DNA of 64,000 bases from Tritonibacter litoralis (GTDB taxonomy: Bacteria > Pseudomonadota > Alphaproteobacteria > Rhodobacterales > Rhodobacteraceae). The stretch lies in NCBI RefSeq assembly GCF_009496005.1, contig NZ_WIBF01000001.1, positions 682,001-746,000 of the forward strand. Direction: 5' to 3'. Below are positions 1-48,938 of the stretch, one piece after another (positions within the stretch are counted from its first letter, which is position 1; each line of letters opens with the position of its first letter). The notes under the pieces were generated by a model. That model had not been told where the DNA came from. It worked only from the letters and a program-made list of their open reading frames with translations, and searched no databases. The translations under genes were made by a program, and so were the position numbers.

Positions 1-696
1 CGCGCTGGTGAGCGCTGCCGCATAGTCGGGCTCAGGCATATCGACATAAGGGATGTCCCTGCCCGCCTGGGCAGACAGCGTCGCGGCCAGATCGGTCAGG
101 GTATAGCTGTCATCACCGGAGAGCTCGTAGGTCTTGCCTTGAAGGCCCGTGTCCAGCAAGACAGCCGCAGCAGCATCGGCGTAGTCCTGCCGCGTGGCTG
201 AAGATATCCGGCCATCCCCGGCCGCACCGATCAATGCGTTGTGTTCCAGTGCCGCGGGCAACCCCATGGTGTAGTTTTCCGTGTACCAACCGTTGCGCAG
301 CACGGTATGGCCGATGCCAGATGCGGCCAGAAGTTTTTCTGTCTCCACGTGTTCCAGCGCAAGGCCCAGCGTGCTGTTTGGTGCGTTCAGCAGGCTTGTA
401 TAGACAATGTGCTTCACACCCGCTTCCTTGGCGGCTTCGATCACCGCTGCATGTTGAGGAACACGGCGACCGACTTCGCTGCCCGAGATCAACAGCAGCG
501 TCTCAACGCCTCCCAAAGACGCAGCGAGCGTTTCAGGGGCGTCGTAGTCAAAAGCACGGACAGGCACGCCCAGATCGGCGGCCTTGTCGGGATTGCGGGC
601 CAAAGCAATGAGACCCTCCGGCGCGGCTTTGGTTTTCAGGGTCTCGACAACAAGGCGGCCAAGCTGGCCGGTGGCCCCGGTCACTGCGATTGTCAT
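1..696 (-). CDS. NmrA-like NAD(P)-binding quinone oxidoreductase (partial, C-terminus outside window)
   Basis: The frame opens at an ATG at 694-696 and runs to the left edge without a stop, giving 232 residues. It begins with a Rossmann nucleotide-binding loop TGATGQLG at residues 6-13. The body resembles the NmrA/QorB group of atypical short-chain dehydrogenases, which bind NADPH and reduce quinones or sense redox state; these lack the usual Tyr-x-x-x-Lys pair. It is divergent from an HxlR regulator 101 bp away, an arrangement typical of electrophile-responsive oxidoreductases, so HxlR control is inferred. The exact substrate cannot be told. Confidence 0.8.
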   Translation of the reverse strand, partial: MTIAVTGATGQLGRLVVETLKTKAAPEGLIALARNPDKAADLGVPVRAFDYDAPETLAASLGGVETLLLISGSEVGRRVPQHAAVIEAAKEAGVKHIVYTSLLNAPNSTLGLALEHVETEKLLAASGIGHTVLRNGWYTENYTMGLPAALEHNALIGAAGDGRISSATRQDYADAAAAVLLDTGLQGKTYELSGDDSYTLTDLAATLSAQAGRDIPYVDMPEPDYAAALTSA

Positions 697-741
697 GGCT
701 GATATCTCCAAATTTTTTCCATGCCATACAGCTAGGCCCTT

Positions 742-780
742 TACTTGCAAAAGGTAAGTACATACATTTTTGTTAGTATG
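742..780. promoter_or_regulatory. Inverted repeats in the qorB-like/hxlR intergenic region
   Basis: Two inverted repeats lie end to end in the 101 bp between the divergent genes: TACTT-N9-AAGTA (742-760) and CATAC-N10-GTATG (761-780). Both have the arm length and spacing expected for a dimeric winged-helix repressor. Binding by the adjacent HxlR protein is inferred from position. Confidence 0.4.
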
Positions 781-797
781 AAATTTATGAGGTCTCC

Positions 798-1187
798 ATG
801 CCGAAACTCAGTGACGCCGTTCGTTCGGGCAAGTTGATAGGAAACCTGCAAGCACAGGAATGTCCGTCGCGCAGTATCCTCAAGCATGTCACTGGCCGCT
901 GGGCCGTTCTGACGCTGATTGCGCTTCAGGGAAGGACGATCCGCTTTGCTGCGCTCAGGCGAACGATCGGCGGGGTCAGTGATCGGATGCTGACACAAAC
1001 GCTTCAGACATTGGAAGCAGATGGATTCGTGCATCGGCAGGCCTTCAAGGTCGTACCGCCTCATGTTGAATACAGCTTGACCCCGATGGGCGAAGAGGTC
1101 GCGCAACATGTGCGCGTGCTCGCAGACTGGATCGAAGACAACACCGGCAACATCCTGTCGACGCGGGAAGAGATCGCGGCAGATTAA
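798..1187 (+). CDS. HxlR-family winged-helix transcriptional regulator
   Basis: This 129-residue protein has the full HxlR layout: an N-terminal Cys in 'ECPSRSILKHVTGRW' near residue 23, the helix-turn-helix around residues 45-75 with 'GVSDRMLTQTLQTLEADG', and the wing with 'VEYSLTPMGEE'. Length and motif order match the family. The lone Cys in the ECP context is the redox- or electrophile-sensing residue in several characterised members such as HypR and QorR. It is divergent from the NmrA-like oxidoreductase, which is the most likely target. Confidence 0.88.
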   Translation: MPKLSDAVRSGKLIGNLQAQECPSRSILKHVTGRWAVLTLIALQGRTIRFAALRRTIGGVSDRMLTQTLQTLEADGFVHRQAFKVVPPHVEYSLTPMGEEVAQHVRVLADWIEDNTGNILSTREEIAAD

Positions 1188-1381
1188 TCGGACGCTATGG
1201 AGCCCAAACCGGCGGCAATCTTATGCGCCGTGAATGATAGCGCGCCTATGCTGATTTTCGCGGCTGTCGCGACCCGCAAAAAGCGGCCAATTAGATCAGA
1301 AATGGCAATTGCACCAAAGTTGGGTCAACGGCTGGTTTCCGAGAAAGATGGCGGCCAACGTTGGTTGGCCACCGCGACCGG

Positions 1382-1675
1382 TTATAAATGTGCTAGGATG
1401 ACACTTGTCGGTTGCTCTGCGAGCATATTCTCAAGGCCAGCCCACGCGCCTGATGCGACCAGATTGTTGATATGAGTTGCATGCTTGTCTGCGCTTTCCC
1501 AATCTTCAATAAGCATAAACACCGCTGGGTCGTCGTGGTGTGTCATTACGCGAACACCTGTACACCCATCTACCAAAGGCAATTCGCTCTTAACCGATTG
1601 CATAGCTTCGGCGAAGGCTGTGAGATGTTCTGACTTTGGTTTGAAAGTTACCGCAACAATATGGGTTTTTGTCAT
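1382..1675 (-). CDS. Antibiotic biosynthesis monooxygenase (ABM) domain protein
   Basis: A 97-residue ferredoxin-like-fold protein of the ABM superfamily. The pattern 'HIVAVTFKPK', then 'LPLVDGCTGVRVM', 'FMLIEDWES' and 'HINNL' matches small quinol monooxygenase-like dimers, many of unknown function. The start chosen is the ATG at 1675, preceded by AGGA at a 10-nt gap; an in-frame ATG at 1723 would add 16 residues unlike the family. It is divergent from a LysR regulator, which probably controls it. Substrate unknown. Confidence 0.7.
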   Translation of the reverse strand: MTKTHIVAVTFKPKSEHLTAFAEAMQSVKSELPLVDGCTGVRVMTHHDDPAVFMLIEDWESADKHATHINNLVASGAWAGLENMLAEQPTSVILAHL

Positions 1676-1796
1676 AAGGAGGATGTCCTTTGTTGTTTTG
1701 AGTTCCATTAATGAAAGTGGCACATCAGCTTTAATTCGCTAATTCGTTTACTAATTACGCTGGTGTTAATCCAATTTCGACGGCAATATTCGAAAC

Positions 1797-2690
1797 ATGT
1801 CTTTCAAAAATAAAATACAGAACTGGGATGACCTCCGACTTTTTCTGGCTGTCGCGCAAGAAGGCGGACTGGTTGGTGCGGCGGCAACTTCGGGGTCAAG
1901 TTCACCCACGTTGAGCCGTAGGATGCGACACCTGGAAGACACCCTGGATGTCCAGCTCTTTGACAGAACCTCAACCGGATATGACCTTACCTCCCACGGT
2001 CGCGAGCTTCTTAGTAGAGTTCTGGAAATGGATGGGCAGTCGAAGTCGATTCAAACGTGGCTTTCGCAACTTGATCATCGACCAGTTGTACGGGTCACGG
2101 CGGGCTTTTGGACAAGCGTCTTTTTGGCGCGACACTTGAGAGACATTTCAACGGGCTCCACTGGACCTCGAATTGAGCTGCTAACAGGTGCGAATTTCCT
2201 CAACCTGTCGCGACGTGAAGCGGATATTGCCGTGCGCAACAAAGTTCCCGACAATCAAGGGATAACGAAGAAGCGGATCGGCCGTGTTAGTTTTGCGATT
2301 TATGGATCAATCGAATACTGCGCCTCGCATCCAGACGCATTTGCGGATCATCGCTACGCGCGCTGTGATTGGGTCGTCCCATCCGTCGCTGGGGGGACCG
2401 GCACCTCATCCTTTTGGTTGCGGCAGCAGATCGGTGGCACGGCGGCCCTAATTTGCGATTCACCTCAAGCGGTTATGGAGGCGGCGGCGGCAGGCGTGGG
2501 GCTGTGTGTTCTCCCAGTGTTCATTGGCTCCTCAGAGCCACGTCTACAGCAATGTTCGCCCCCAATAGAAAGCATCGAACATACGCAATGGTTGGTCAAA
2601 CACCAAGACGACGGAAATCTTACTCACGTTCGAAAAGTCTTTCGCAAGATTGACTCCCTGTTTGAACGGCACAGGGAGTCGTTTCATTAG
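1797..2690 (+). CDS. LysR-family transcriptional regulator
   Basis: A 297-residue LysR-type regulator. The N-terminal winged helix-turn-helix (residues about 8-66) reads 'WDDLRLFLAVAQEGGLVGAA' and 'PTLSRRMRHLEDTL', followed by a periplasmic-binding-protein-like effector domain. Compared with the usual family signature the recognition helix keeps the S-x-x-T-x-S-R-R pattern. It is divergent from the ABM-domain gene; the intergenic stretch holds three closely spaced TAATT motifs (1732-1755) that could belong to its operator. Effector unknown. Confidence 0.88.
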   Translation: MSFKNKIQNWDDLRLFLAVAQEGGLVGAAATSGSSSPTLSRRMRHLEDTLDVQLFDRTSTGYDLTSHGRELLSRVLEMDGQSKSIQTWLSQLDHRPVVRVTAGFWTSVFLARHLRDISTGSTGPRIELLTGANFLNLSRREADIAVRNKVPDNQGITKKRIGRVSFAIYGSIEYCASHPDAFADHRYARCDWVVPSVAGGTGTSSFWLRQQIGGTAALICDSPQAVMEAAAAGVGLCVLPVFIGSSEPRLQQCSPPIESIEHTQWLVKHQDDGNLTHVRKVFRKIDSLFERHRESFH

Positions 2691-2718
2691 ATTGACTTGA
2701 AACTGGAAGGCTTTACGC

Positions 2719-2913
2719 ATTTCCCCGCAAAAGGACACGACAACACCTGAATGGTCAAAACCCGGCATCTACGGAGCGCTTCTCGGCGCGGCCTTTGTCA
2801 GCATCGTTGGATTTTCCTGGGGCGGCTGGATGACCGGAAATGGCGCCGAAGAGATGGCCAACAAGCTGGCTGGGAATCGGGTTTCAGGAGATCAATGGCG
2901 CGACCTGTCTTGA
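2719..2913 (+). pseudogene. Remnant of a small inner-membrane protein (start lost, C-terminus truncated)
   Basis: In one frame the translation reads 'PEWSKPGIYGALLGAAFVSI' then 'GFSWGGWMTGNGAEEMANKL', which resembles the N-terminal membrane segment of a small protein common in alphaproteobacteria. No ATG, GTG or TTG precedes it in frame at a sensible place, and a TGA at 2911-2913 cuts it off after about 60 residues, well short of what I recall for that family. I therefore read it as a gene fragment. Confidence 0.45.
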
Positions 2914-3367
2914 GGTGGTGGTGCCCGATGGCGGATATCTGACGCTGGTATGACGCCCAGATGATCGCCCGCAATCCTCTGCGACGCACTACCCGCATCT
3001 TTTTCTCTGTTCCCAGTGCCGCGAAAGTACGGTCTCAATGTCGCTGCCAAGAGAGGTTGGCAATGACTGATTGGGCAACTCTTCAAAGCCCGCTTTCTGC
3101 GTGCATGCCACAGGGATATTCTGCCCAGTCAGAGTTTTGAACGACAATGGCACACCACGAGCGCAATAAAACGACGAGGAAACCTGTGGCCCTGGTCGCG
3201 AGATGGAGATAGTAAACCAAAGTCGGCTTCGTCCCGCTGAGACCTTGGACAACCACACACGTTTTCACGTCTCAACCCAGCGTTCGGGCATTATCAGCAA
3301 AATTCATCATACAGATTGACCAATTTAGTCTAATGTATTTAAGTGTAGATACAGCAGGAGAAGTCCA
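2914..3367. other. Non-coding stretch, probably decayed DNA
   Basis: No frame with credible protein character is visible on either strand in these 450 bases. Together with the membrane-protein fragment just to the left this looks like an old breakpoint separating the LysR locus from the hexuronate cluster. The right end (3320-3367) holds the promoter region of the GntR gene. Confidence 0.4.
3325..3333. promoter_or_regulatory. Palindrome TTAGTCTAA upstream of the GntR regulator
   Basis: TTAG-T-CTAA is a perfect 9-bp palindrome 35 bp before the proposed start of the regulator. FCD-type GntR proteins often bind short palindromes in their own promoters, so autoregulation is possible. The half-sites differ from the TTGTATGA motif ahead of the catabolic operon, which weakens the case. 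Confidence 0.3.
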
Positions 3368-4084
3368 ATCATTACCGAGAACAAGCAAACCCGTGTCGCC
3401 ACCCTCCGCGAAGAACTGAAAGCTCAGATCGAAGGCGGACAATTTGGCGTTGGCGACCGACTGCCCAGCGAGGCGCGGTTGACGGAGGAGTTTTCGGTTA
3501 GCCGTACCGTTGTCCGGGAGGCTATTGCCGCGTTGCGCGCGGATGGTTTGGTCGAACCTCGCCAAGGATCGGGGGTCTACGTCCTTGAACCAAAGCCGCA
3601 GGCTGAAACGCCCTTTACCTCTGTGGATATGGGGCGGCTGTCATCCGTTATCGAATTGTTGGAGGTGCGCACAGCCGTGGAAGTGGAGTCCGCAGGCCTT
3701 GCTGCGCAGCGATGCAGCCCAAGCGAGGAAGAAGACATCATCGAATGTCTCAAGGAGGTCACCCGCCTGAATTCCGCACAGCAATCCTCCAGCGACGCGG
3801 ATTTCGCATTGCATCAAGCCATTGCACGGGCAACCCACAACCCGCGATTTGTGGAATTTCTCGGCATTTTGGGCCCATCCGCCATTCCGCGTCGCGCGCT
3901 CAACGGCTCAAAGAACCGGCCCTACCCGCAAAGCTATGTGGACTGTATCAACGCCGAACATGATGAGATTGTCACCGCAATCCTGAACCGTGATGAAGAC
4001 GGCGCGCGTGCTGCAATGCGCAGCCACCTAAAAGACAGCCAGCAGCGTTACCGAAGCCTCTTGCGCGGCCAGCCCGAAAGCTAA
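3368..4084 (+). CDS. FCD-domain GntR (FadR subfamily) regulator of hexuronate catabolism
   Basis: About 238 residues: a GntR winged helix (residues about 10-75, with 'GDRLPSEARLTEEFSVSRTV', 'EAIAALRADGLVEPRQGSGV') and a C-terminal all-helical FCD domain. A TTG at 3479 would remove half of the DNA-binding domain, yet the frame upstream stays open with family-like sequence to a TAG at 3326-3328 and contains no ATG, GTG or TTG. The best start is ATC at 3368 (AGGAG at 3356-3360, 7-nt gap) or ATT at 3371. It converges on the uronate operon, whose control is its likely role; GguR, DgoR and UxuR are functional relatives. Confidence 0.8.
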   Translation: MITENKQTRVATLREELKAQIEGGQFGVGDRLPSEARLTEEFSVSRTVVREAIAALRADGLVEPRQGSGVYVLEPKPQAETPFTSVDMGRLSSVIELLEVRTAVEVESAGLAAQRCSPSEEEDIIECLKEVTRLNSAQQSSSDADFALHQAIARATHNPRFVEFLGILGPSAIPRRALNGSKNRPYPQSYVDCINAEHDEIVTAILNRDEDGARAAMRSHLKDSQQRYRSLLRGQPES

Positions 4085-4105
4085 GCCACGCCAAGCGGTC
4101 CCGCC

Positions 4106-4981
4106 TTAGGCGCGGCCCTCCTCTGCCCAGGTTGGAAACCCATAAAGCTCTTGCGGGTTGTCGACAAGGACCTGCTGCAGCGCCGTATCAGGCACCCAGG
4201 ACAGGACCGTATCCAACAGAGCACCATCGTCCGGGTAATCTTCTGTTTTTTGCGCCAGATTATGCGGCCAATTGGTTCCCCAAATCACGCGCTCGGGCGC
4301 ATATTCCACAACCGCCTTTGCCACTTTGGCGATGTCAGAGAACTCTGGCCCGCCCTCGCGACTGCTTTCATAGCAGCCCGCGAATTTGAACCACATATTG
4401 CCGCCGTCCAACAAACGTTTGATCGCATCCAGATGCGCCTGCGTCGCCCCCTCAAAGATCTTGGCGTGATGGTCCAAAACCCAACGCGACTTTAGGGACG
4501 AGAGTTGATCCAAACGGTCCGGCAAGGTGCTGCCGTCAAATTGAACGGCCATCATCCAGTTTGCCGCATGGGCCGTTGCATCCACATCCGCCAGCGCCTC
4601 CAGCCCTGTTGCACCACCAGGCAGATCCATAATCCGCGCCCCGACGATGCCTTTGGCAGACAGAGCCTCGATCTCCTTCTCCGTCTCAGAACCGGTGATC
4701 ACAGCGACACCACGCGCCAGATCGCCCATCTGATCCAGGCAAGCCAGCAGCGAGGCATTTTGTGCCTGATGCGCATTTGCCTGGGTAACAACCACGCGAT
4801 CGATCCCAAGCCATGCCATGACCTGTTTGTACATCTCTGGGGTGGGCAACGGATCAAGCGGCAAACCGGGCCCGCCGTCCTCGGCCGGAAATCCCGGCAG
4901 GAAAAGATGGGTCTGCGTGTCCACAGTCCCCCGTGGCAGCGAAAGGCGTGGCGGTTGCCCTGTTAGTTTTCGGTCAATCAT
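4106..4981 (-). CDS. gli: D-galactarolactone isomerase (amidohydrolase superfamily)
   Basis: A 291-residue member of the amidohydrolase_2 family (TIM barrel). It opens with 'VDTQTHLFLPG', the first-strand H-x-H position being T-x-T-H here; 'WVLDHHAK' near residue 165 and 'VIWGTNWPHNL' near residue 237 mark later barrel strands. In Agrobacterium the amidohydrolase next to Gci interconverts D-galactaro-1,5- and 1,4-lactone, so that substrates from both galacturonate and glucuronate reach the cycloisomerase. Here it overlaps the cycloisomerase gene by 4 bp (ATGA) and is last in the operon, which supports that assignment. Confidence 0.75.
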   Translation of the reverse strand: MIDRKLTGQPPRLSLPRGTVDTQTHLFLPGFPAEDGGPGLPLDPLPTPEMYKQVMAWLGIDRVVVTQANAHQAQNASLLACLDQMGDLARGVAVITGSETEKEIEALSAKGIVGARIMDLPGGATGLEALADVDATAHAANWMMAVQFDGSTLPDRLDQLSSLKSRWVLDHHAKIFEGATQAHLDAIKRLLDGGNMWFKFAGCYESSREGGPEFSDIAKVAKAVVEYAPERVIWGTNWPHNLAQKTEDYPDDGALLDTVLSWVPDTALQQVLVDNPQELYGFPTWAEEGRA

Positions 4982-6117
4982 GATCTCTCTCTCAAAGCAA
5001 AATCGCGCAGTGCGTCGCGGTTGATTTCGATCCCCAAACCGGGTCCATCCGGGATCGCAACTACGCCACGCTCGTGGTCCAGCGGGGTTGATAAAACCGC
5101 CTGGCGGAAGGGATTATGTGTTCGGTCAAACTCCAATATCGGCTCGACCGGATTGGGGCGTACCGGCGACGGCACCATGGCCGCAATAAACTGCAATGCC
5201 GCAGCGATCTGAACGCCTGTTCCCCAAACATGCGGCACCAGGCGGACGCCATAAAGCGCGGCAATATCGGCGATTTTCTTCGCCTCGCTCAAGCCACCTA
5301 CCCCACAGATATCCGGCTGGGCAATATCAACCAGCCGCCGGGAGAGCGGTTCGGAAAAACCCCAGCGCGTGTGCCAAGTCTCTCCCCCCGCAACGGGAAT
5401 GGGCTGTCGGTTGCGCACCTCGCCATAGGCCGCAAGCTGCTCTGGAACCACCGGTTCTTCGAACCAGTCGACGCCATAATCTGCCGCACGAGACCCCAGG
5501 CGCACCGCATCCACCACGTCGTAACCGTGATTGGCGTCAATCATCAGGCGCATGTCCTGGCCCATGACATCACGTACGGCTTTGATGACCTCCAGATCTT
5601 CGGCAACATCAAACCCGATCTTTACCTTGGCCGCATGAAAACCTGCCTCTTTATGCTCTGCCATTTCGCGCGCATTGTCTTCAACCCGATCAACACCATC
5701 GCGTTTAAAACTGCCGGTGGCATAGGCACGCACACTGTCACGGAACCGACCGCCCAAAAGGGTGGACACAGGCACGCCAAACCGCTTCCCTTTGATGTCC
5801 CATAGCGCAACGTCAATGCCAGAGAGCGCTGTGACCGTCAGACCGCGCTGTCCCTGATCCCGCAACGCATTATAGAGTGTCGCCCAGATCTTTTCCGTTT
5901 CAAGCGGATCCTGGCCGATGAGCCAACTCCGGTAGCTTGCGACAACAGCAGCGTTGGGCACTGCCGGCCCCAAACATTCACCCCAGCCGATTGTCCCATC
6001 ATCGCAGATGACCTCAACCAACACGTGCTGCCGCCGATCAAACCTCATGGAGGCGCTTTGAAACGGGACCTCCAGACGGTGCTCCAACAGATGCGTGCGA
6101 ACGTCAGCGATTTTCAT
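4978..6117 (-). CDS. gci: D-galactarolactone cycloisomerase (enolase superfamily)
   Basis: A 379-residue enolase-superfamily protein with both the N-terminal capping domain and the barrel. Visible active-site residues are the KxK pair K164/K166 ('AKVKIG'), metal ligands D194 ('MIDANHGYD'), E220 ('FEEP') and E246 ('GGET'), and H296 ('VPHVWG'). The family opens the aldarolactone ring to give 3-deoxy-2-keto-hexarate. Its place between the lactone isomerase and the keto-deoxy-aldarate dehydratase is as in the characterised Agrobacterium oxidative galacturonate pathway. Mandelate racemase or another acid-sugar dehydratase would be the alternative on sequence alone. Confidence 0.8.
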   Translation of the reverse strand: MKIADVRTHLLEHRLEVPFQSASMRFDRRQHVLVEVICDDGTIGWGECLGPAVPNAAVVASYRSWLIGQDPLETEKIWATLYNALRDQGQRGLTVTALSGIDVALWDIKGKRFGVPVSTLLGGRFRDSVRAYATGSFKRDGVDRVEDNAREMAEHKEAGFHAAKVKIGFDVAEDLEVIKAVRDVMGQDMRLMIDANHGYDVVDAVRLGSRAADYGVDWFEEPVVPEQLAAYGEVRNRQPIPVAGGETWHTRWGFSEPLSRRLVDIAQPDICGVGGLSEAKKIADIAALYGVRLVPHVWGTGVQIAAALQFIAAMVPSPVRPNPVEPILEFDRTHNPFRQAVLSTPLDHERGVVAIPDGPGLGIEINRDALRDFALRERS

Positions 6118-6127
6118 GCGCTTCTCC

Positions 6128-8570
<2,443 letters not shown>

Positions 8571-8655
8571 TGCAATTCTCCGCTTTGGCGGACATAGCTC
8601 CGCCATCCGGAGCGGGGGATCCCCTGCTCCGGTGTTTCAAGTGAAAGTAGAACGA

Positions 8656-9450
8656 TCAGTCTTTTATGATCGGATCTGCCGTGAACTTGCCTCCTTGCCA
8701 CAACACATCCGACGCATCGGCAGGCCGCGGAGGCAGCGTTTCGATTTCTGCTCGATAGATTTCACTGTTGTCCTGTGCGGTCCAACCCAGCCAGCCAATG
8801 TGGCTGTTGTCCCACCAGCCACAGCTGTTGTTGGAAACGCCCCAGATCACCGGGCAGCCAAGTTTTGGCACGGTGAACAGACGTTCCATAAGGCGGCAAT
8901 AATCGTCATAACTAAACCAGGTGGCCATCATTCTGCGATCGACAGGTTTTTCAAAACACGAGCCAATGCGCAGCAACGCTGTCTCTTGGCCAAATTTGGC
9001 GTGATACATCTGTGCCACCGCTTCGCCATAGACCTTTGACACCCCGTACCATCCATCCGGTCGCGTGGGGGCATCGACAGTCAGCCGTTGGGATTGCGGG
9101 TAAAAACCGATTGTATGATTGGAACTGGCAAAGACAATCCGAGGCATGCCCTGAGCCCGAGCCGCTTCATAAAGGTTGTGCACCCCGCGAAGATTGGCGG
9201 CCTCAATCAGCTCATAACTTTTCTCAACCGACACGCCGCCCAAATGCAGCACCGCATCGCAGTCTTTGACCAGCTGCGTGACTGCGGTTGCATCAGCAAG
9301 GTCGGCCGTCACGATCTCTTCTTGGTCTGACAGGCGTTCAAACGGCTCGATGTCTGTGGCGCGAATGTGTTTGGCCAAATGCGACAGACGCGTGCGGCTC
9401 ATTCGGCCCAAATTGCCTGCGGCCCCGGTAATCAAAAGGCGGTTTAGCAT
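8656..9450 (-). CDS. udh: Uronate dehydrogenase
   Basis: A 264-residue extended-SDR protein oxidising galacturonate or glucuronate with NAD+ to the aldarolactone. The dinucleotide loop is 'TGAAGNLG' (residues 8-15); the catalytic triad is S110 ('FASSNH'), Y135 and K139 ('YGVSK'). 'RIGSCFEKP' and 'DNSHIGWLGW' are typical of characterised Agrobacterium and Pseudomonas enzymes. It stands 3 bp after dctM, so transport and first oxidation are translationally close. Confidence 0.9.
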   Translation of the reverse strand: MLNRLLITGAAGNLGRMSRTRLSHLAKHIRATDIEPFERLSDQEEIVTADLADATAVTQLVKDCDAVLHLGGVSVEKSYELIEAANLRGVHNLYEAARAQGMPRIVFASSNHTIGFYPQSQRLTVDAPTRPDGWYGVSKVYGEAVAQMYHAKFGQETALLRIGSCFEKPVDRRMMATWFSYDDYCRLMERLFTVPKLGCPVIWGVSNNSCGWWDNSHIGWLGWTAQDNSEIYRAEIETLPPRPADASDVLWQGGKFTADPIIKD

Positions 9451-9453
9451 AGG

Positions 9454-10731
9454 TTACTCCATAAGGTTTGGCAGGAACATGGACACTGCCGGAATGTAAG
9501 TGACGCACAGCAGTGCAGCGAGAATGGCCAGGTGAAACGGCCAGATCGTCTTGACCGCGTCTTCGATGCGCACCTTCCCCACAACGCAGCCGACAAAGAG
9601 GCAAGCGCCAACAGGCGGTGTGCACAGGCCCAAACCCAGGTTCATCATCAAGATTACACCAAACTGGATCGGATCCATTCCAAGGCCGACGACAACTGGT
9701 AGGAAGATCGGTGTGCAAATCAGGATCAGCGCCGCCATATCCATGATCATCCCCAGCAACAGCAGGATCAGATTGATCATCAAAAGGATCACAAACGGAT
9801 TGTCAGAGAGGACGGTCACCGCATGCGCCAGCAGATCCGGAACACGATAAAGGGCCAAAAGGTATGAGAACGCAGACGCCGCAGCCACCAGCATCATCAC
9901 CAAGGCGGTGGTCCGAACAGAGGTCACCACGGCGCGTTTGAACGCATCCCACGTCAGCTCGCGGTAGACCAATGTGGTGACAAGCAATGCCCAGATCACG
10001 CCAAAGGCACCAGATTCTGTCACCGTCATAACCCCGGACAAAACTCCGCCCACAATGATCACCGCAGTCATCAGCCCTGGCAACGCGACAATGGTTGCGA
10101 TGCCCAGTGCTTTGAAGCCCGGAAAGGTTTCGGCGGGATATCCGCGACGCACCGCGACCCAATAGGCCACAAGCGCAAGGCACAGACACATCAGAACGCC
10201 AGGCACGATCCCCGCAATAAACAATTTGGACACCGACAGCCCACCTGCCGCGACAGCATAGAGGATCATATTATGACTGGGCGGGATCACAACGCCGGCA
10301 ACCGAAGAGGTCACGGTTACGTTGACGGCGTAGTCGGCATCATAGCCTTTGTCTTTCATGACCGGCATCAGGATCGAGCCCAAAGCAGAGGTATCTGCAA
10401 CAGCCGAGCCGGAGATCCCCCCAAAGAGCATGGAAGACAGGACATTGACCACCCCCAGCCCCCCTCGGATTGACCCAACTGCCGAGGCCGCCAAACGCAC
10501 CAGACGGTTGGCAATACCGCCCTGCATCATCAATTCACCGGCGAAAATGAAAAACGGGATGGCCAGCAGCGAAAACACAGAAATGCCCGACATTATCCGC
10601 TGGAACCCGATAAAGAGCGGAAGACCCTCATACAGGAAGCCCCCAACGGCCGCGAGTCCCAGTGCAAAAGCCACAGGCATCCCGCAAAACAGCCCAAGGG
10701 CAAATATGCCAAAAAGAACGGTAAGGCCCAC
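9454..10731 (-). CDS. TRAP transporter large permease (DctM family)
   Basis: A 425-residue polytopic membrane protein with about 12-13 hydrophobic segments and the DctM signatures 'FALGLAAVGGF', 'GGISGSAVADTSALGSI' and 'GLGLCTPPVGACLFVG'. It uses the sodium gradient to move a solute delivered by the DctP protein. The start is GTG (10731-10729) immediately after the dctQ TAA, so the two genes abut. Substrate is inferred as galacturonate/glucuronate from the operon. Confidence 0.92.
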   Translation of the reverse strand: MGLTVLFGIFALGLFCGMPVAFALGLAAVGGFLYEGLPLFIGFQRIMSGISVFSLLAIPFFIFAGELMMQGGIANRLVRLAASAVGSIRGGLGVVNVLSSMLFGGISGSAVADTSALGSILMPVMKDKGYDADYAVNVTVTSSVAGVVIPPSHNMILYAVAAGGLSVSKLFIAGIVPGVLMCLCLALVAYWVAVRRGYPAETFPGFKALGIATIVALPGLMTAVIIVGGVLSGVMTVTESGAFGVIWALLVTTLVYRELTWDAFKRAVVTSVRTTALVMMLVAAASAFSYLLALYRVPDLLAHAVTVLSDNPFVILLMINLILLLLGMIMDMAALILICTPIFLPVVVGLGMDPIQFGVILMMNLGLGLCTPPVGACLFVGCVVGKVRIEDAVKTIWPFHLAILAALLCVTYIPAVSMFLPNLME

Positions 10732-13054: not shown

Positions 13055-13528
13055 TCAGGCCTCAAGCTTGTCCAGAAGCGTTCGAAAGGCTTTGCGCGCC
13101 GTACCGGGGTGGCGCACTTTCTTTGCAGCGGCCAAATTGTGCATGTCTCCCCCGACAACAATCAATCCAACCATGCCCCATTCATAATGTGGCACACAGA
13201 TGTGGCCATAGATGCCGGGCACCGTGAATTCGACTGTCAGTTCTTCATCAACTGCGCCGTTCCAAGGCTCGGCCCCTTCGGGGATCATGCCACGTTTGGA
13301 GGCCGAGTTATGACCGTCATCCGTGGCCAGGAAGGTCACTGTGTCTCCGACATTTATGCGCAACAGGGCCGGTTCGAACACGTTCGGCATATCTGGATCA
13401 CCACAGCCTGTGTTCAGCATCAAGACAGAATGCGATTTGCCAGCCGGTACAGGTACAGGGCAAGACATGGCCGCACCCGCACTCATCAAGGCGCCCATTG
13501 AAAGGGTAAAACTACGACGCGTAAGCAT
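13055..13528 (-). CDS. Pseudoazurin-like periplasmic type 1 copper protein
   Basis: A 157-residue cupredoxin with a Tat-like leader (RRSF in residues 1-10, then a hydrophobic stretch to about residue 25). The copper ligands are visible: first His in 'DDGHNS', then Cys, His and Met in 'GHICVPHYEWGM'. Pseudoazurins carry electrons to nitrite and nitrous-oxide reductases, but no denitrification gene is in view. The start codon lies 17 bases inside the 3' end of the ABC ATPase gene, so it belongs to that operon and may work in metal handling. The ATG at 13528 gives the only plausible export leader; an upstream ATG would add about 35 residues unlike the family. Confidence 0.85.
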   Translation of the reverse strand: MLTRRSFTLSMGALMSAGAAMSCPVPVPAGKSHSVLMLNTGCGDPDMPNVFEPALLRINVGDTVTFLATDDGHNSASKRGMIPEGAEPWNGAVDEELTVEFTVPGIYGHICVPHYEWGMVGLIVVGGDMHNLAAAKKVRHPGTARKAFRTLLDKLEA

Positions 13529-14285
13529 GAACAAGTAAGTCCTCTCTTGGGCCGGTGGAGATCTCGATCTCGACCCCATAGGTTTTGGAAATCGCAGAAG
13601 ACCGCAGAACTTCATCGGGTGCGCCCTGGGCAAGAACGCACCCGTTGCCGATCAACAAAAGATGATCAGCAAAACGGGCGGCCAGGTTCAAATCATGCAA
13701 AGCCACGATCCCAACCGCACCGCGCGTGGCAACCGCCGTTTTGATTTGATCCAGGACGGAAATTTGATGGCGCAGATCCAACGCCGAGGTTGGTTCGTCA
13801 AACAGGTATACATCCGAGCGCCGAATAAGCGCCTGAGCCGCCGAAACCATCTGCGACTGCCCGCCCGACAAATCGCTGATGTAGGCCTCAGACAGGTGCG
13901 CAATGCCAGCCGCCTCTAACGCGCGGGCAACAGCGATCATGTCTTCTTCGCTCACACGCCAACCTTCGAGCTGTTTATGGGCCATCATTACGACGTCAAA
14001 GACCGTCAACGCCGCATTGGCCGCAAAGAACTGCGGCATAAAACAGATACGCTTCAGACGCTTGCGGCTGCTCAGCGTATCCAGATCTGTCTCGTCCAGA
14101 TAGGTTTTGCCGGATTGAGGCTTTAAAAGCCCCGCCATCACCCGAAAGAGCGTTGATTTACCGGCCGCATTCGGGCCGATAAGCGCCGTTAGCTTGCCGG
14201 GCTGAAGCGCGTTGAAACTGACGTTGTTCAACACTTTGCGCGCGCCATATGCAAAACACAGGCCGTCTGCTCTTAAACCAGTCAT
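13512..14285 (-). CDS. FecE-type ABC transporter ATP-binding protein
   Basis: A 257-residue ATPase of the iron-siderophore/haem/cobalamin importer class. Walker A is 'GPNAAGKST' (about residues 37-45), the signature motif is 'LSGGQSQM', Walker B 'VYLFDEPTSALD', and the switch His lies in 'IVALHDLNLA'. It overlaps the permease gene by 4 bp upstream and the cupredoxin gene by 17 bp downstream, so all four genes are probably translated together. Confidence 0.92.
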   Translation of the reverse strand: MTGLRADGLCFAYGARKVLNNVSFNALQPGKLTALIGPNAAGKSTLFRVMAGLLKPQSGKTYLDETDLDTLSSRKRLKRICFMPQFFAANAALTVFDVVMMAHKQLEGWRVSEEDMIAVARALEAAGIAHLSEAYISDLSGGQSQMVSAAQALIRRSDVYLFDEPTSALDLRHQISVLDQIKTAVATRGAVGIVALHDLNLAARFADHLLLIGNGCVLAQGAPDEVLRSSAISKTYGVEIEISTGPREDLLVHAYAS

Positions 14286-15352
14286 TGCCAGTGCCTCTTA
14301 CGCTGCCCAAGGATCAGAAGGATAAAAAACGGGACGCCAATCAGCGAGGTGATCATGCCAATCGGATAAACGATACCAGGGGTGATCGCCTTTGAAGCAA
14401 TGGACGTGCCCGACAGGATCAAAGCCCCACAGAGGGCCGCCAGCGGCAAGAAGCCGCGCTGATCTTCGCCAACAATCATGCGAGCGATATGCGGACCAAC
14501 AAGCCCGACAAAGGCGATGGCGCCAACAAAGGACACAGCCACCGCCGCAAGAAGCGACACCCCAGCCAGGACCCCAACCCTTAGGAGGCCAACGTTCACA
14601 CCAAGGGCTGCGGCTTTGTCTTCGCCCATGCGCAGGGCGGTCAACGCCCATGCACGGCTATAAAACCACGGCAAAAGAACCCCCAGCACAACCGCGCAGA
14701 TCATGACCTTGTCCCATGTGGCGCGTGACAAGGATCCAAGCTGCCAAAAGATGAGCTGCGCCAGCTGCATCTCGGAAGCTCCGTATTGCAGAAACGCCAG
14801 CAAGGCATTGAAGGTAAAGAGCATCGCGATCCCAACAAGGATCATCCCCTCGGGCGACACCCCACGTAGCTTGGTGAATAAATAGAGCGCCGCAGATGCG
14901 CCCAGGGCAAACACAAACGCGTTTACAGTGACAAACAAACCGCCAACACCAGGCACAATCGACCACCCCAGAACGATTGCAAGCGCAGCGCCGAAACTGG
15001 CCGCCGCCGAAAGTCCCAGGGTGAACGGGTCGGCCAACGGGTTGTTCAGGATGGTCTGCATCTCGGCCCCGGCAACGCCCAGCATCGCGCCGACCAGCAC
15101 CGCCATCAGGGCAACCGGCATGCGCAGTTTCCAGATGATGACGTCTTCTTTGGGCGTGGCGATGGAAGGATCCAGAATAACCTGCAACGTGCGTCCAAAG
15201 GTCAAATTTGCAGGCCCCGTGATAATGTCGAGGACCACAAGCGCGACCAGCGCGACCAATGCGGCGAGCACCATCAACAGTTTGCGGCTATTTCGGCTGC
15301 GGTAATCTTTCACAAGATCCGTGGCAGCCAGGGTGAGTGTTTGATCAGACAT
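14282..15352 (-). CDS. FecCD-family ABC transporter permease
   Basis: A 356-residue membrane protein with about ten hydrophobic segments and FecCD/BtuC signatures: 'LRMPVALMAVLVGAMLGVAG', 'NPLADPFTLGLSAAASFGAA', 'GAIAFVGLVGPHIARMIVGE' and 'PIGMITSLIGVPFFILLI'. Such permeases act as homodimers importing ferric chelates, haem or cobalamin. The gene follows the binding-protein gene after 58 bp and overlaps the ATPase gene by 4 bp. Confidence 0.92.
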   Translation of the reverse strand: MSDQTLTLAATDLVKDYRSRNSRKLLMVLAALVALVALVVLDIITGPANLTFGRTLQVILDPSIATPKEDVIIWKLRMPVALMAVLVGAMLGVAGAEMQTILNNPLADPFTLGLSAAASFGAALAIVLGWSIVPGVGGLFVTVNAFVFALGASAALYLFTKLRGVSPEGMILVGIAMLFTFNALLAFLQYGASEMQLAQLIFWQLGSLSRATWDKVMICAVVLGVLLPWFYSRAWALTALRMGEDKAAALGVNVGLLRVGVLAGVSLLAAVAVSFVGAIAFVGLVGPHIARMIVGEDQRGFLPLAALCGALILSGTSIASKAITPGIVYPIGMITSLIGVPFFILLILGQRKRHWQ

Positions 15353-15410
15353 ATTTCAAACCTGAAAAGGAGAAGTGACCCGCAGGCTTGCGCTTGCAGG
15401 TCGGCTGCAT

Positions 15411-16571
15411 TCAGTACTGGGCTGCGGGTGCAGACATCCAGAATGTACCGTCCGCTTCGAACGGCAAGAAGCGCGCGTGAAGCTCTTGGAAATTGGCCCA
15501 AGGATCCAGATCTTCGAAATCATCGGGATGGAACCATTTCGCCAGCTGCTGGATCGCGATGAAATGGTAGGGCGAATTGTAGAACTGGTGGAAGATGGCA
15601 TGGTAATTGCCCGCTTGAACCGCTGACAATTCGGCAAACCCGTCGCGTGCCGCAAGCGCTTTGATACGATCTGCATTGGCCTCTTCGGTGGCTTCATAGC
15701 CCAGAAGAACTGAGGTCACTTCAGGACGAGCTTCGGCCCAGTTCGCGCCAGTGGCAACGATATGGGCTGGATCGGCTTCGATCACACCCTCAAGGTTCAG
15801 TGTCACGGAATACGCATTGGCCAAGGTCGAGGCATAGTTGGTGCCCCCGGCCAGTTCAACAAAACGGCCATAATTATATGGGCCAAACGACCAGCAGCAG
15901 AAATCGACCTGCCAACCGGCTGCGTTTTCAACCACAACAAGCGGGCGCTCTTCCGCCGGGATTTGGTCGATAACATTGGTCACGCGACGCATCTGAGCCA
16001 TGTAAAAATCGATGAACTCTGACGCGCGTTTTTCTGCTCCAAAAACACGACCAAGCAGCAGGAGCGATGGCACCGTGTTCTCGGTTGCGTTGCGGCGGAA
16101 GTCGATGAATGCAACCTGTACGCCAGCGGCACCCAGCTTCTCCATCAAACCCGTTTCTTCGGCCTTAAACAGGCTGCCAGCCTCCAGAAGGACCAGATCG
16201 GCTTCGCTTTCCAATACCGCTTCGATGCTGAAGTCGCCGGCGTAGGGGTTGCCAAAGCTGATCATCCGCGCAGTGTCTTCCGGGAAGGCGGTCTGGAACT
16301 TGCGGAACCCATCGGGGTCATACTGAATCAAATCGTCGTTCCAGCCGACGATCTTTTCAAACGGGTTGTCGCCGACGACGGCGGAAATACCGTACATCAT
16401 GCGGCCTTCGCCAAGGATGATTTTGTCGGGCATTTCAGGAAGCGTCACTTGACGTCCTGCAATATCGGTAAAGGTCAAGGCTTCGGCTTGAGCATCGGTG
16501 GCTGACACAAGGCAGGTTGCGCTGGCTGCAATTGCACCAAGGAAGCCGCTGAGTTTTGTCGAATACGACAT
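15411..16571 (-). CDS. FecB/BtuF-like ABC transporter substrate-binding protein
   Basis: A 386-residue periplasmic binding protein of the helical-backbone metal-chelate class. A signal peptide covers residues 1 to about 29 (ending 'SATDAQA'), followed by 'TFTDIAGRQVTLPEMPDKII', the family's first conserved block. An unusual 'DFCCWSFGPYNYG' occurs near residue 225 with two adjacent cysteines. Ligand is unknown: the FecB class suggests an iron chelate or haem, while the linked cupredoxin raises copper or a copper chelate as an alternative. Confidence 0.85.
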   Translation of the reverse strand: MSYSTKLSGFLGAIAASATCLVSATDAQAEALTFTDIAGRQVTLPEMPDKIILGEGRMMYGISAVVGDNPFEKIVGWNDDLIQYDPDGFRKFQTAFPEDTARMISFGNPYAGDFSIEAVLESEADLVLLEAGSLFKAEETGLMEKLGAAGVQVAFIDFRRNATENTVPSLLLLGRVFGAEKRASEFIDFYMAQMRRVTNVIDQIPAEERPLVVVENAAGWQVDFCCWSFGPYNYGRFVELAGGTNYASTLANAYSVTLNLEGVIEADPAHIVATGANWAEARPEVTSVLLGYEATEEANADRIKALAARDGFAELSAVQAGNYHAIFHQFYNSPYHFIAIQQLAKWFHPDDFEDLDPWANFQELHARFLPFEADGTFWMSAPAAQY

Positions 16572-16636: not shown

Positions 16637-16657
16637 CTCCGATTAAAAAAGTCGGAA
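16637..16657. promoter_or_regulatory. Imperfect palindrome upstream of the FecB-like gene
   Basis: TCCGA (16638-16642) and TCGGA (16652-16656) form an inverted repeat with a 9-bp A-rich centre, 66 bp before the start of the binding-protein gene. On the minus strand an AT-rich segment precedes it, as in a promoter. A metal-responsive repressor site is a reasonable guess, but the protein is not identifiable. Confidence 0.4.
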
Positions 16658-30689: not shown

Positions 30690-31391
30690 ATGTTTCTGGA
30701 TCATTTCAGCGCTTTCGCGAACTACCAACCGGTTGAATTCGTGGCGGATTTGCCGTCTTCCTTTGAAGGCGCCGTGCCGCGCAACACCCACCGTCCCCGC
30801 GCGGGTGGTCTGCTGCCGCATACTGTGATTGAGACCGAAGCAGGCTTTGTTCAGGCCCGTGATCTGAAATCCGGTGACATGGTGTTCACGTTTGACGGAG
30901 GCTCCCAAAAAGTCATCGCCGTTAAGCATTCGGTGCCCCGCCTGACCCCGATGATGCATGTGCCTGCCGGTGCTTTGGGCAATGAACGCGCAATGGATCT
31001 GCCTGCGGATCAGATGATCGCGTTGGACGAAGCCACCGCAGACCGTCTGTTTGACGTGCCTGTGGTGCTGGCGAAACTGGTCTCTTTGGCGGGCTACAAT
31101 GGCATCACCCCAGCCATGCCGCAGCGTCTGGCCCGCATTCACATCACCTTTGAAGAAGAAGAGCTGATCTGGGGCGAAGGTGGCATGCTGATGCATGTGG
31201 CTGATACCGACGCCGAAGACAGCGCCTTTTGGACCCTGTCGCTGAGCGAAAGCCGGGCGCTGGTTGCCTCTTCCCAAGACCGCGTTCTGCCGCAACCTTC
31301 CGAGATTGTGCGGAACGCGCAGGAAAGCTCTGTGTTGCCTGCATGGCTGCAGCAGCTGAAGATCGCCACACCCTTTGGCCTGGCCGCCTGA
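30690..31391 (+). CDS. Hint-domain (Hedgehog/intein-type) protein, apparently without the catalytic cysteine
   Basis: A 233-residue protein whose middle reads 'HTVIETEAGFVQARDLKSGD' then 'MVFTFDGG', the Hint block A pattern in which a Cys/Ser normally precedes a 'GT-x-I' turn. Here the position reads 'LLPHTVIET' with no Cys or Ser. Later blocks are weakly kept ('LPADQMIALDE', 'IHITFEEEELIWGEGGMLMH'). The family is abundant in Rhodobacteraceae with unknown function; self-cleavage looks unlikely for this member. A CtrA-type site and DnaA boxes lie upstream. Confidence 0.7.
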   Translation: MFLDHFSAFANYQPVEFVADLPSSFEGAVPRNTHRPRAGGLLPHTVIETEAGFVQARDLKSGDMVFTFDGGSQKVIAVKHSVPRLTPMMHVPAGALGNERAMDLPADQMIALDEATADRLFDVPVVLAKLVSLAGYNGITPAMPQRLARIHITFEEEELIWGEGGMLMHVADTDAEDSAFWTLSLSESRALVASSQDRVLPQPSEIVRNAQESSVLPAWLQQLKIATPFGLAA

Positions 31392-44454: not shown

Positions 44455-45558
44455 TTACTTGGGGAACACAAAACAATGGCGACGCGGCACCGTCAGCCAC
44501 ATCACCCGGCCTGCTTCGGGCAGGAACACGCTGGGCACCGTGACCTTCTGAATGGATCCGTCAAACTCCATGCGGAATTCCACCAGGCTTTCATGGCCCA
44601 AAAACCGGGCGCGTTCCACAGTGGCACGCGCCGCCACACCATGCGTCGGGGTGGGCAAAGGGCCCGAGCCGTTGCGGTCAAAATCAATGCGCACATGCTG
44701 GGGGCGAAAGACAATCTCCACCTCGGTGCCATCCGGGTGGCCCGGTGTCAGGAACTGGCCAAAAGGCGTATCCACCAAAGCGCCCTGAACCGTTCCCTTG
44801 ACCACATTCACATCGCTGAAAAACGCCACCGCCGCCCGGTCGACCGGGTTGGTATAAACGTTATAAGGCGCGCCCTGCTGGATAATGCGCCCCCCCCGCA
44901 TCAGCGCGATCTGATCCGCCATGCGCATTGCTTCTTCGGGTTCATGGGTGACCAGCAGCACCGCCGTGTCCTCATCCTTGAGGAGCGACAGCGTCTCGTC
45001 CCGGATACCATCGCGCAGCCGGTTGTCGAGGCCCGAAAACGGCTCATCCATCAGCATAATGCGGGGGCGCGGTGCCAGGGCACGGGCCAGGGCCACACGT
45101 TGCTGTTCGCCGCCCGACAGCTGATGGGGGAATTCATCAATATACTGGCTGAGCGAGACCTTCTCCAACAGCTCCGTCACACGGGCGCGTTTTTCGGCGC
45201 GCGTCCCTTTCAAACCAAAGGCCACGTTATCGGCCACACTCAGATGGGGAAACAGGGCAAAGTCCTGAAACATCAGCCCGATTTCGCGCCGCTCCGGGGG
45301 CACGCGATAGACGGTGTCGCAGATCAGTTTGCCATCCACATAGATCTCACCGGCGTCCTGCATTTCAACGCCTGCGATAATGCGCAAGGTGGTGGATTTG
45401 CCGCAGCCCGATGGACCCAGCAGACAGGTCACCTGCCCCGCCTGCACCGTCAGGGAGACGTTATCCACAACCGGCCTGTCGTCAAACGAACAGTGGATAT
45501 TGCGGATTTCCAGACGCGGAGCGGTCTCCGTGTGCAGGGGCTGGGCAGAGGTATTCAT
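44455..45558 (-). CDS. Iron/polyamine-type ABC transporter ATP-binding protein (no partner genes nearby)
   Basis: A 367-residue importer ATPase with the long C-terminal regulatory (TOBE-like) domain of the FbpC/PotA/CysA class. Walker A 'GPSGCGKSTTLRII' near residue 52, signature 'LSGGEQQRVALARALA', Walker B 'IMLMDEPFSGLD', and 'LLVTHEPEEAMRMAD' are present. 'GLMFQDFALFPHLSVADNVA' is FbpC-like. No permease or binding protein is adjacent; an arsenite methyltransferase gene is directly upstream. The ATG at 45558 was preferred over one at 45633, which leaves only 6 bp after the arsM stop. Confidence 0.85.
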   Translation of the reverse strand: MNTSAQPLHTETAPRLEIRNIHCSFDDRPVVDNVSLTVQAGQVTCLLGPSGCGKSTTLRIIAGVEMQDAGEIYVDGKLICDTVYRVPPERREIGLMFQDFALFPHLSVADNVAFGLKGTRAEKRARVTELLEKVSLSQYIDEFPHQLSGGEQQRVALARALAPRPRIMLMDEPFSGLDNRLRDGIRDETLSLLKDEDTAVLLVTHEPEEAMRMADQIALMRGGRIIQQGAPYNVYTNPVDRAAVAFFSDVNVVKGTVQGALVDTPFGQFLTPGHPDGTEVEIVFRPQHVRIDFDRNGSGPLPTPTHGVAARATVERARFLGHESLVEFRMEFDGSIQKVTVPSVFLPEAGRVMWLTVPRRHCFVFPK

Positions 45559-45639
45559 CGCGGCTTGGACCTTGTTGCATGTGTCGGGAGTGCCACCGGC
45601 ATCTGCCGCAGATAGCAATCCCGACTGTTTCACGCAAGA

Positions 45640-46689
45640 TCAGCAGCAGCCTGCCTCTTCGCTGCCTGTGGCATCAAAGGCAAAGGGGGTGTCGCCCCCG
45701 CAGCCCGGAAACAGGCCGTAGTGGGTGTCGAAATTGCCGATGAACTCAAAATGTTCCGCAAACCGCGTGTCTTTCAGCATCATCCAGGTGTTGCCGCAGA
45801 CCGGAAAGACCTTGCCGGTTTCGATCTTGTGGTGGCTGTCCAGTTCAAAGGCGTGGGGCGCATGTTCCAGCGTGCCTTTGTAGATCACCGCCTGGCCGTA
45901 GTCTTCGCAGGCGCTTTCGAGCGCGGGCAGTTTGAACAGCCGATAGGTGGTGGAGGAGAAGGTCAACGGGGCCACGCGCGCTTCAAGCACCGGGTTGTCC
46001 ACGGTCAGCTGTCGCGTGTTGACCATACGCGGATCGCCAAAGCCCGATTGTTTGGCAATGGTCAGGAAGTCGTTCCAATAGAGCGCGCCGGACAGGCATT
46101 CGCCATAAAGCACCTCATCCTCGGCCATGGCTTTGGGCACGCGGCGGTCGGCGTAAACATCCGAGAAATACATCTCTCCGCCTTCTTTCAGCAGATGCGC
46201 CGCGCCCCGCAGCACCGCGCCTTTGTCGGTGGCCAGGTTGATCACGCAGTTGGAGACGATGATGTCAAAGCTGCCGGGTTCCAGATCCAGCTCATCGAGC
46301 TTTTCGATAAAGCCGTGGTGAAACTCCACATTGGACTGGGCAAAGCCGAATTTCTCGGCGTGATACGCCTTGTGACGCTCGGCCACTTCCAGCTGGGCCG
46401 GGGTCATGTCGACGCCCACCACTTTGCCGGTTTCGCCCACCATCTGCGACAGCGCATAGACATCGCGACCTGCGCCGCAGCCCAGATCCAGAATGCGCGC
46501 GCCTTCCAGTGCCAGAGGGGCAATCAAACCGCAGCCATAATAGCGGGTCAGGACCTCGTCATGGATCTGGCCCAGGACTTTTTTGACGTAATCCGGCATG
46601 TCATCCGGTGTGCAACAGGCGTTGGTTTGCAGATCATCGCTGCCTTGCAGTACTTCGCCATAGTAGTTTTGCACGTTTTCGTGTTTCAT
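45640..46689 (-). CDS. arsM: Arsenite S-adenosylmethionine methyltransferase
   Basis: A 349-residue ArsM-type enzyme methylating As(III). SAM binding is by 'ARILDLGCGAGRDVYALSQM' near residue 65 and 'VGVDMTPAQLEVAERHKAYH'. Candidate arsenic-binding cysteines are in 'ACCTPDDMPDY', 'IVSNCVINLATDK' and 'LYGECLSGALYW'. The C-terminus ends in GCC, as in several ArsM proteins with vicinal cysteine tails. No ArsR, ArsB/Acr3 or ArsC gene is in the window, so detoxification may depend on genes elsewhere. Confidence 0.9.
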   Translation of the reverse strand: MKHENVQNYYGEVLQGSDDLQTNACCTPDDMPDYVKKVLGQIHDEVLTRYYGCGLIAPLALEGARILDLGCGAGRDVYALSQMVGETGKVVGVDMTPAQLEVAERHKAYHAEKFGFAQSNVEFHHGFIEKLDELDLEPGSFDIIVSNCVINLATDKGAVLRGAAHLLKEGGEMYFSDVYADRRVPKAMAEDEVLYGECLSGALYWNDFLTIAKQSGFGDPRMVNTRQLTVDNPVLEARVAPLTFSSTTYRLFKLPALESACEDYGQAVIYKGTLEHAPHAFELDSHHKIETGKVFPVCGNTWMMLKDTRFAEHFEFIGNFDTHYGLFPGCGGDTPFAFDATGSEEAGCC

Positions 46690-48715: not shown

Positions 48716-48938
48716 TTTGTCCTTCACATATCTTCCATTTGGCGGCGACATTTGCACAGCCAAGGAGATGTGACCAGCCCCCGTTTCACGAGCCGCATGG
48801 CGGGCAAGGTCACGAAATGTTCAGAGGCTGGCCGGTAAATGGCCACAATCAATCGTTAAAGATTTAGTGATACTCTACTCTGAGAATTCAAGGCACTCTC
48901 CTTTGCTTCAATCTTCTGCGCGTTTGATCGTCACCTCC

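Follow-up and report, generated by a model that had tools for sequence, protein, structure and literature searches.

A pseudoazurin-type copper protein encoded with a FecBCD-type importer behind an iron-type promoter element in Tritonibacter litoralis

In a 64,000-nucleotide stretch of the Tritonibacter litoralis genome (the window; positions 682,001-746,000 of contig NZ_WIBF01000001.1, with all coordinates for it counted from its start), a gene for a pseudoazurin-type cupredoxin is the last member of a four-gene operon that also encodes a FecBCD-type importer, and the operon is preceded by a palindrome of the kind found before Rhodobacteraceae iron genes. As read from the sequence, a predicted iron-controlled co-expression of a ferric-chelate-type importer with a periplasmic copper protein is well supported. 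It is very probable that the operon is iron-regulated and that the role of the cupredoxin is not denitrification; a redox function in iron nutrition is probable. With a probability of roughly 0.4, we propose that the cupredoxin may act as an iron-starvation redox partner in iron acquisition, most likely as a one-electron acceptor for Fe(II).

The open reading frame (ORF) listing places the four genes in one operon on the minus strand (16571-13055), in the order substrate-binding protein (SBP), FecCD permease, ATPase and cupredoxin. The SBP is FecB/YiuA-like by Pfam and phmmer (Peripla_BP_2, 386 amino acids, 15411-16571) and is followed by a FecCD-type permease (356 amino acids, 14282-15352; PF01032, 272 bits), a FecE-type ATPase (257 amino acids, 13512-14285; ABC_tran) and the cupredoxin (157 amino acids, 13055-13528; TIGR02375 and Copper-bind). 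Every Peripla_BP_2, FecCD, ABC_tran and Copper-bind match of the four proteins lay above the Pfam cut-off, and the first three of these domains together in one operon identify the importer as FecBCD-type. The permease and ATPase genes overlap by 4 nucleotides (nt) and the ATPase and cupredoxin genes by 17 nt, the cupredoxin ATG lying at 13528 and the ATPase stop codon ending at 13512, which confirms the claim of an earlier note on this DNA that the cupredoxin start codon is located within the ATPase gene. Translational coupling of the cupredoxin with the metal-chelate importer, which the same note had put forward as co-translation, is therefore probable, judging from the gene overlap.

Upstream of the operon, 66 nt 5′ of the SBP ATG, we found the palindrome TCCGACTTTTTTAATCGGA (16638-16656, minus strand), which resembles the Iron-Rhodo-box, a 19-bp palindrome that precedes Rhodobacteraceae iron genes and is bound by IscR in Rhodobacter (PMC4618611). 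The scoring matrix was derived from 14 hemP promoters, not from the published consensus letters, and holds hemP sites only (30, from 14 loci); its seed, one 19-mer with its reverse complement, was chosen by eye after the hemP and operon promoters had been viewed. At a threshold of 9 bits, a box-like site was present 49-112 nt before the SBP start in all 32 operon promoters (31 loci and the window; L118 and L123 were excluded as they have no SBP start), with best scores of 9.1-22.4 bits, 20.5 bits for the window site, and p values of 0.01-0.03 when each promoter was compared with 100 shuffles. Among 124 regions upstream of further long ORFs in these loci one reached the threshold, and among 91 AT-matched stretches none did; the second set was added because the 124 controls precede mechanically called ORFs that in some cases are certainly not genes. 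The sole control above the threshold (L143 at 419, 21.3 bits, before an ABC transporter ORF) may be a true site and was counted as a control, and the Mann-Whitney p of 5e-18 is too small, because near-copies were included (L136/L138/L139, L121/L122 and L129/L131). Both hemP and Rrf2-family proteins were located in 12 of 12 genomes. At seven loci (L133, L134, L136, L138, L139, L140 and L083) the divergent neighbour of the operon is an imelysin (irpA-like) gene, behind which a bacterioferritin gene follows in six of the seven (Pfam check on the L134 proteins), and in genome G380 hemP occupies that place beside the operon. Iron is thus likely to be the signal that controls the operon, as far as promoter and neighbouring genes indicate.

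Comparative genomics of the four-gene order, proposed in the earlier note, showed that the arrangement is shared. Of 394 sampled family genomes, 41 contained a relative of the SBP (E ≤ 1e-30), as did 9 of 18 genus genomes (E ≤ 1e-20), the genome of the window being included in both counts. Neighbourhoods were fetched for 39 of the 53 other SBP matches, the 14 matches of at most 38% identity being left out; a 40th locus, L106, came from the cupredoxin search and not from the SBP search (28 of the 57 cupredoxin matches of that search had no locus or were the window itself). At SBP identities of at least 62%, the cupredoxin was in fourth place in six of eight loci (L071, L072 and L079-L082), giving seven genomes with the four-gene order found through the SBP alone, the window included; the remaining two loci carry a truncated cupredoxin (L083) and a decayed operon (L093). 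None of the 31 fetched loci of at most 52% SBP identity had a cupredoxin beside the importer. A cupredoxin-based search, in which alignment A1 was used for one scan of public genome contigs, yielded 35 loci, mostly from roseobacters (among them the marine isolates Epibacterium ulvae U95, L119, and Roseobacter sp. MED193, L131) and Roseibium/Labrenzia, and six of these (L117, L119, L124, L126, L132 and L143) are from the same genomes as six of the SBP-found set (L132 = L081). The same importer lies directly upstream in 32 of the 35 (SBP in view in 31; L123 begins at a contig end), and the other three show an ATPase remnant (L118), a cupredoxin fragment (L144) and a different importer (L145). 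The association of the two is thus more than coincidence. In a tree that leaves out L144, L030 and L120, 33 of the cupredoxins form a clade supported at 100/99, and the 17-nt ATPase/cupredoxin overlap recurs in 26 of the 33 clade loci, one of which (L118) has the ATPase remnant only. The condition that the earlier note named for its refutation, close importer homologues mostly without the cupredoxin, thus proved false within the clade; the more distant relatives do lack the gene. Six Roseibium rows fall within a starred set of nine, mixed with roseobacter rows (few columns, midpoint root), which suggests that the unit may have been transferred between lineages.

The cupredoxin itself is probably functional and pseudoazurin-type, in agreement with the earlier note, on the grounds of its family score and preserved ligands, and the sequence leaves no doubt about the fold. 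It scored 123.1 bits against the TIGR02375 pseudoazurin model (cut-off 109.85), its top PDB match was the pseudoazurin 3tu6 (E 4.5e-30), and the His, Cys, His and Met ligands of type 1 copper, all reported earlier as present, are H73, C111, H114 and M119 in the C-x2-H-x4-M arrangement of pseudoazurin. A cupredoxin search of its own genome (E ≤ 0.01) matched only the protein itself. The family model, the four ligands and the best PDB matches are shared with the pseudoazurins of Achromobacter, Paracoccus, Alcaligenes and Sinorhizobium; different here are the iron-type importer as operon partner, the loss of the docking lysines and the gain of E116 and, mostly, C42. For the A. faecalis pseudoazurin, PMC6274584 describes K10, K38, K57 and K77 as important for NirK binding, and counts H81, Y82, A83 and M84 with the residues that NirK perturbs most. 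The equivalents of the four lysines, which are a functional and not a defining feature of pseudoazurins, are T40, D71, N90 and I110 in the window protein, none of them basic. Basic residues at these positions occur in 0 of 34, 2 of 34, 0 of 33 and 0 of 33 clade rows (column counts leave out L144), against 24, 25, 17 and 17 of 28 rows of unlinked pseudoazurins. E116 (codon at 13181-13183, minus strand), two residues past the ligand His114, corresponds to the A83 position of the A. faecalis protein, and Glu is found there in all 33 clade rows that have a residue at that place versus 0 of 53 unlinked rows, although the count among the 35 loci is inflated since one cupredoxin search pattern contained this Glu; in the bias-free set, the seven cupredoxins of alignment A1 found via the SBP, it is present in 7 of 7. 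The extra Cys42 occurs in 30 of 34 clade rows. The N-terminus carries a twin-arginine (TRRSF) signal region by motif reading (approximately residues 1-22, 13463-13528, minus strand), and the RR-x-F/L motif was detected by script in 30 of 34 clade rows (that of L143 precedes the likely start) and 6 of 32 other rows, so it is commoner in the clade but not unique to it. The net charge of the whole mature cupredoxin was rejected as a discriminator (mean -3.8 vs -4.9), and only the docking-face positions discriminate.

The importer is of the YiuABC/FecBCD type, a family that takes up ferric chelates. The best PDB match of the SBP was 6b2x (YiuA; phmmer E 1.5e-76), and YiuA R64, R165, H331 and Y334 correspond to R57, R159, H328 and Y331 of the SBP by hand count on the alignment, with R57 and R159 present in 39 of 39 cupredoxin-linked SBP rows. 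The position of the third arginine proposed for YiuA is Ala in all 39 linked rows and likewise in each of the 22 cupredoxin-less rows of at least 38% identity, most of these sisters having an Arg one residue before it; loss of the third arginine only in cupredoxin-linked SBPs was therefore rejected as a substrate clue. Compared with the YiuABC (Yersinia), FecBCD and FhuBCD importers, the window system has the same YiuA-like SBP with two of the three proposed site arginines, the His and the Tyr, a Cys-Cys pair, a FecCD permease and a FecE ATPase, and differs in its cupredoxin gene, which is found in none of the 31 relatives of at most 52% SBP identity. YiuABC itself is not known to include a cupredoxin gene. 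The Cys-Cys pair that the earlier note had placed near residue 225 and called unusual is indeed at residues 225-226 (15894-15899, minus strand), and it is a family-wide feature: all 39 linked rows have it (with six genomes counted twice), as do 22 of 22 others of at least 38% identity, 4 of 10 more distant rows and YiuA. In YiuA the paired cysteines are joined by an intramolecular disulfide at the base of the C-terminal lobe (PMC5683015). A structural role, independent of the cupredoxin, is most likely for the pair.

A second importer-linked pseudoazurin lineage was found in L106 (genome G038) and L145 (Szabonella alba), in which genes for an EitA-like SBP, a FecCD permease and an ATPase are followed, as in the window, by a pseudoazurin gene. 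The L106 SBP scored 278 bits against the EitA model, below its cut-off of 640, and the L145 SBP is 51% identical to it. The importer belongs to another subfamily and the two pseudoazurins to a separate tree branch (100/94), so that coupling to FecBCD-type importers most simply arose twice on this tree. A pseudoazurin at threshold was present in 25 of 385 sampled Alphaproteobacteria, and 3 of 56 checkable rows of the comparison set were importer-linked (L206 and L028 being one place); coupling is therefore rare overall.

That denitrification is not in view, as the earlier note had observed for the window, extends to the whole genome, in which no NirK or NosZ profile match exceeded the cut-off. 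An ordinary denitrification donor that sits by chance in an importer operon would agree with the TIGR02375 score and with a short cytochrome d1-like match in the same genome (32.3 bits versus a Pfam cut-off of 25.5, over about 100 of 368 positions), but this explanation is highly improbable and has been largely refuted. Among eight operon genomes, NirK was above cut-off only in G380, where the cupredoxin is truncated, and both NosZ and a strong cytochrome d1 match were confined to G235; the lysines that bind NirK are gone. Relatives of NirK, NirS or NosZ were near the linked set in 0 of 44 rows (the 35 loci, eight others and the window), so the alternative raised earlier, a cupredoxin beside nitrite reductase genes instead, was not borne out. 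In the comparison set, 10 of 56 rows had a NirK relative alongside, in eight cases with an identity of at least 65%, despite flanks of approximately 1.5 kb.

Plastocyanin replaces cytochrome c6, and on this model the cupredoxin could be an iron-sparing electron carrier that replaces a haem cytochrome c in respiration and is co-expressed with the importer as both are needed at low iron. The iron box before the operon, the single pseudoazurin match in the genome and the survival of importer and cupredoxin each alone (L083, L118 and L120) all fit such a carrier; the loss of the basic docking positions does not, nor does the finding that, in the loci examined near pseudoazurins, both importer-adjacent lineages sit with importer genes and not elsewhere in the iron regulon, and we regard it as a close rival of the proposed role, only slightly less probable. 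Copper-chelate import, in which the importer would bring in a copper complex and the cupredoxin would be its periplasmic acceptor or user, is improbable. The copper protein in the operon speaks for it, and the SBP lacks one member of the arginine triad put forward as the siderophore site of YiuA, but the same column is Ala in the cupredoxin-less rows as well, the SBP family binds ferric chelates and iron genes adjoin the operon in seven loci. Given the iron-type promoter element, the copper uptake role suggested in the earlier note is not favoured.

For a redox partner in iron acquisition, the proposed sequence of events would begin with a shortage of iron, in which an [Fe-S]-sensing regulator, in Rhodobacter IscR, would let go of the promoter, and importer and copper protein would appear together in the periplasm. 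The later steps are the least certain: the cupredoxin might accept one electron, keeping or making periplasmic iron ferric, the ferric iron might thereby stay in the chelate taken up by the FecBCD importer, and the electron might pass on to the respiratory chain. Redox release of a metal from its chelate, which the earlier note had offered as a possible role, would meet the difficulty that the potentials of ferric siderophores are too low for reduction by a blue copper protein; reduction of ferric siderophores by the cupredoxin is thus unlikely, and the opposite direction, with the electron coming from Fe(II), is more plausible. Four points slightly favour electron acceptance from Fe(II): the cupredoxin is tied to importer genes, its docking lysines are lost, a Glu sits at the copper edge, and there is a precedent in FtrB, the cupredoxin of an iron importer, which speeds Fe(II) oxidation in vitro (PMC11966278). 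A periplasmic cupredoxin-fold protein that serves an iron importer would be common to the present operon, to FtrABCD (FtrB) and to EfeUOB (the N-terminal cupredoxin-like domain of EfeO). FtrB, however, is without the type 1 His-His-Cys set (it has a D118/H121 site) and works with an Ftr1p-type permease for Fe(II), whereas the window operon combines a classical type 1 ligand set with an ATP-driven importer of the ferric-chelate family (FecCD) and lacks the FtrB-type features. The most specific form of the proposal, a copper-assisted ferric-chelate ABC importer in which the type 1 cupredoxin would take electrons from Fe(II) or an Fe(II)-chelate at the SBP and so trap the Fe(III)-chelate for FecBCD, is doubtful.

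Several observations weigh against a redox role of the cupredoxin in iron uptake, besides the inflated E116 count. Why an importer of ferric chelates should need an oxidant is not obvious, and since only two of the three proposed YiuA arginines are conserved, the substrate is not fixed. Nine of 18 cupredoxin-less importer relatives also reach 9 bits with the hemP matrix; iron control would thus belong to the importer, which the cupredoxin joined, and the box speaks only indirectly for the cupredoxin. The importer is kept with a truncated cupredoxin in L083 (5800-6138) and with a cupredoxin broken by one stop codon in L120 (at about 6265), L118 has a full-length cupredoxin next to a mere ATPase remnant, and importer relatives of at most 52% identity persist without any cupredoxin; therefore, neither importer nor cupredoxin strictly needs the other. 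The second lineage differs from the clade in showing no iron box with the hemP matrix at L106 or L145. At the E116 position L106 has Ala; L145 was found via the Glu pattern, and the L145 permease matches in three frames, so that this copy may be broken or badly sequenced.

Genes around the related operons vary. The cupredoxin is followed by a gene for a class I SAM methyltransferase in L111 (3913-4590, plus strand), L112, L114-L116, L121, L122 and L132/L081, L145 also has a methyltransferase gene, and a different methyltransferase comes straight after the ATPase in the cupredoxin-less relatives L084 and L088; as none follows the window cupredoxin, the methyltransferase was rejected as a constant extra gene and is not core. 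In L144 (Ruegeria arenilitoris, 165-6542) the cupredoxin fragment and a methyltransferase-related ORF share a stretch with ExbD, TonB, a TonB-dependent receptor and an MFS transporter, which looks like a replacement of the importer by a different uptake system. L138 (10466-12473), L136, L139 and L143 have a gene for a DUF1636 protein (checked on L138) and then genes of a second FecBCD-type importer near the operon. By eye, the flanks of the more distant SBP relatives L100-L104 contain large NRPS-module-like ORFs with receptor-like and esterase-like proteins and are probably siderophore synthesis loci. Decay or sequencing errors affect the cupredoxins of L083 and L120, the L093 operon (8300-10200) and the permeases of L122 (4170-5247) and L145 (4208-5150), which are split over frames.

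Elsewhere in the window, an ArsM-like methyltransferase with paired cysteines adjoins an ABC ATPase gene (44455-46689, minus strand), possibly for arsenic handling, and two proteins have apparent Hint-type domains (30690-31391 and 48867-49943, both plus strand), all by eye. Promoter-like sites in the window were no commoner than in shuffles (2 vs 2.3), terminator-like sites were not decisive, and a search for tRNA genes in the window found none.

Iron import with the help of a cupredoxin is already known from FtrABCD and EfeUOB; the combination of a classical pseudoazurin with a FecBCD importer and an upstream iron box looks new. A search of the open-access literature (PMC9409073 included), with subscription journals mostly uncovered, gave no account of this operon. 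A pseudoazurin gene is easily read as a sign of denitrification. In the present lineage such genes would mark iron starvation, and annotation based on TIGR02375 could therefore mislead. If the copper-assisted importer were true, ferroxidase-coupled iron import would have evolved a further time, on an ABC importer, and perhaps twice (in the YiuA-like and EitA-like lines). Copper supply limits iron acquisition in yeast and diatoms. Should the cupredoxin be involved in uptake, the same limit on iron acquisition would apply in marine bacteria, and the operon would represent a prokaryotic copper-iron link on a siderophore-type ABC importer.

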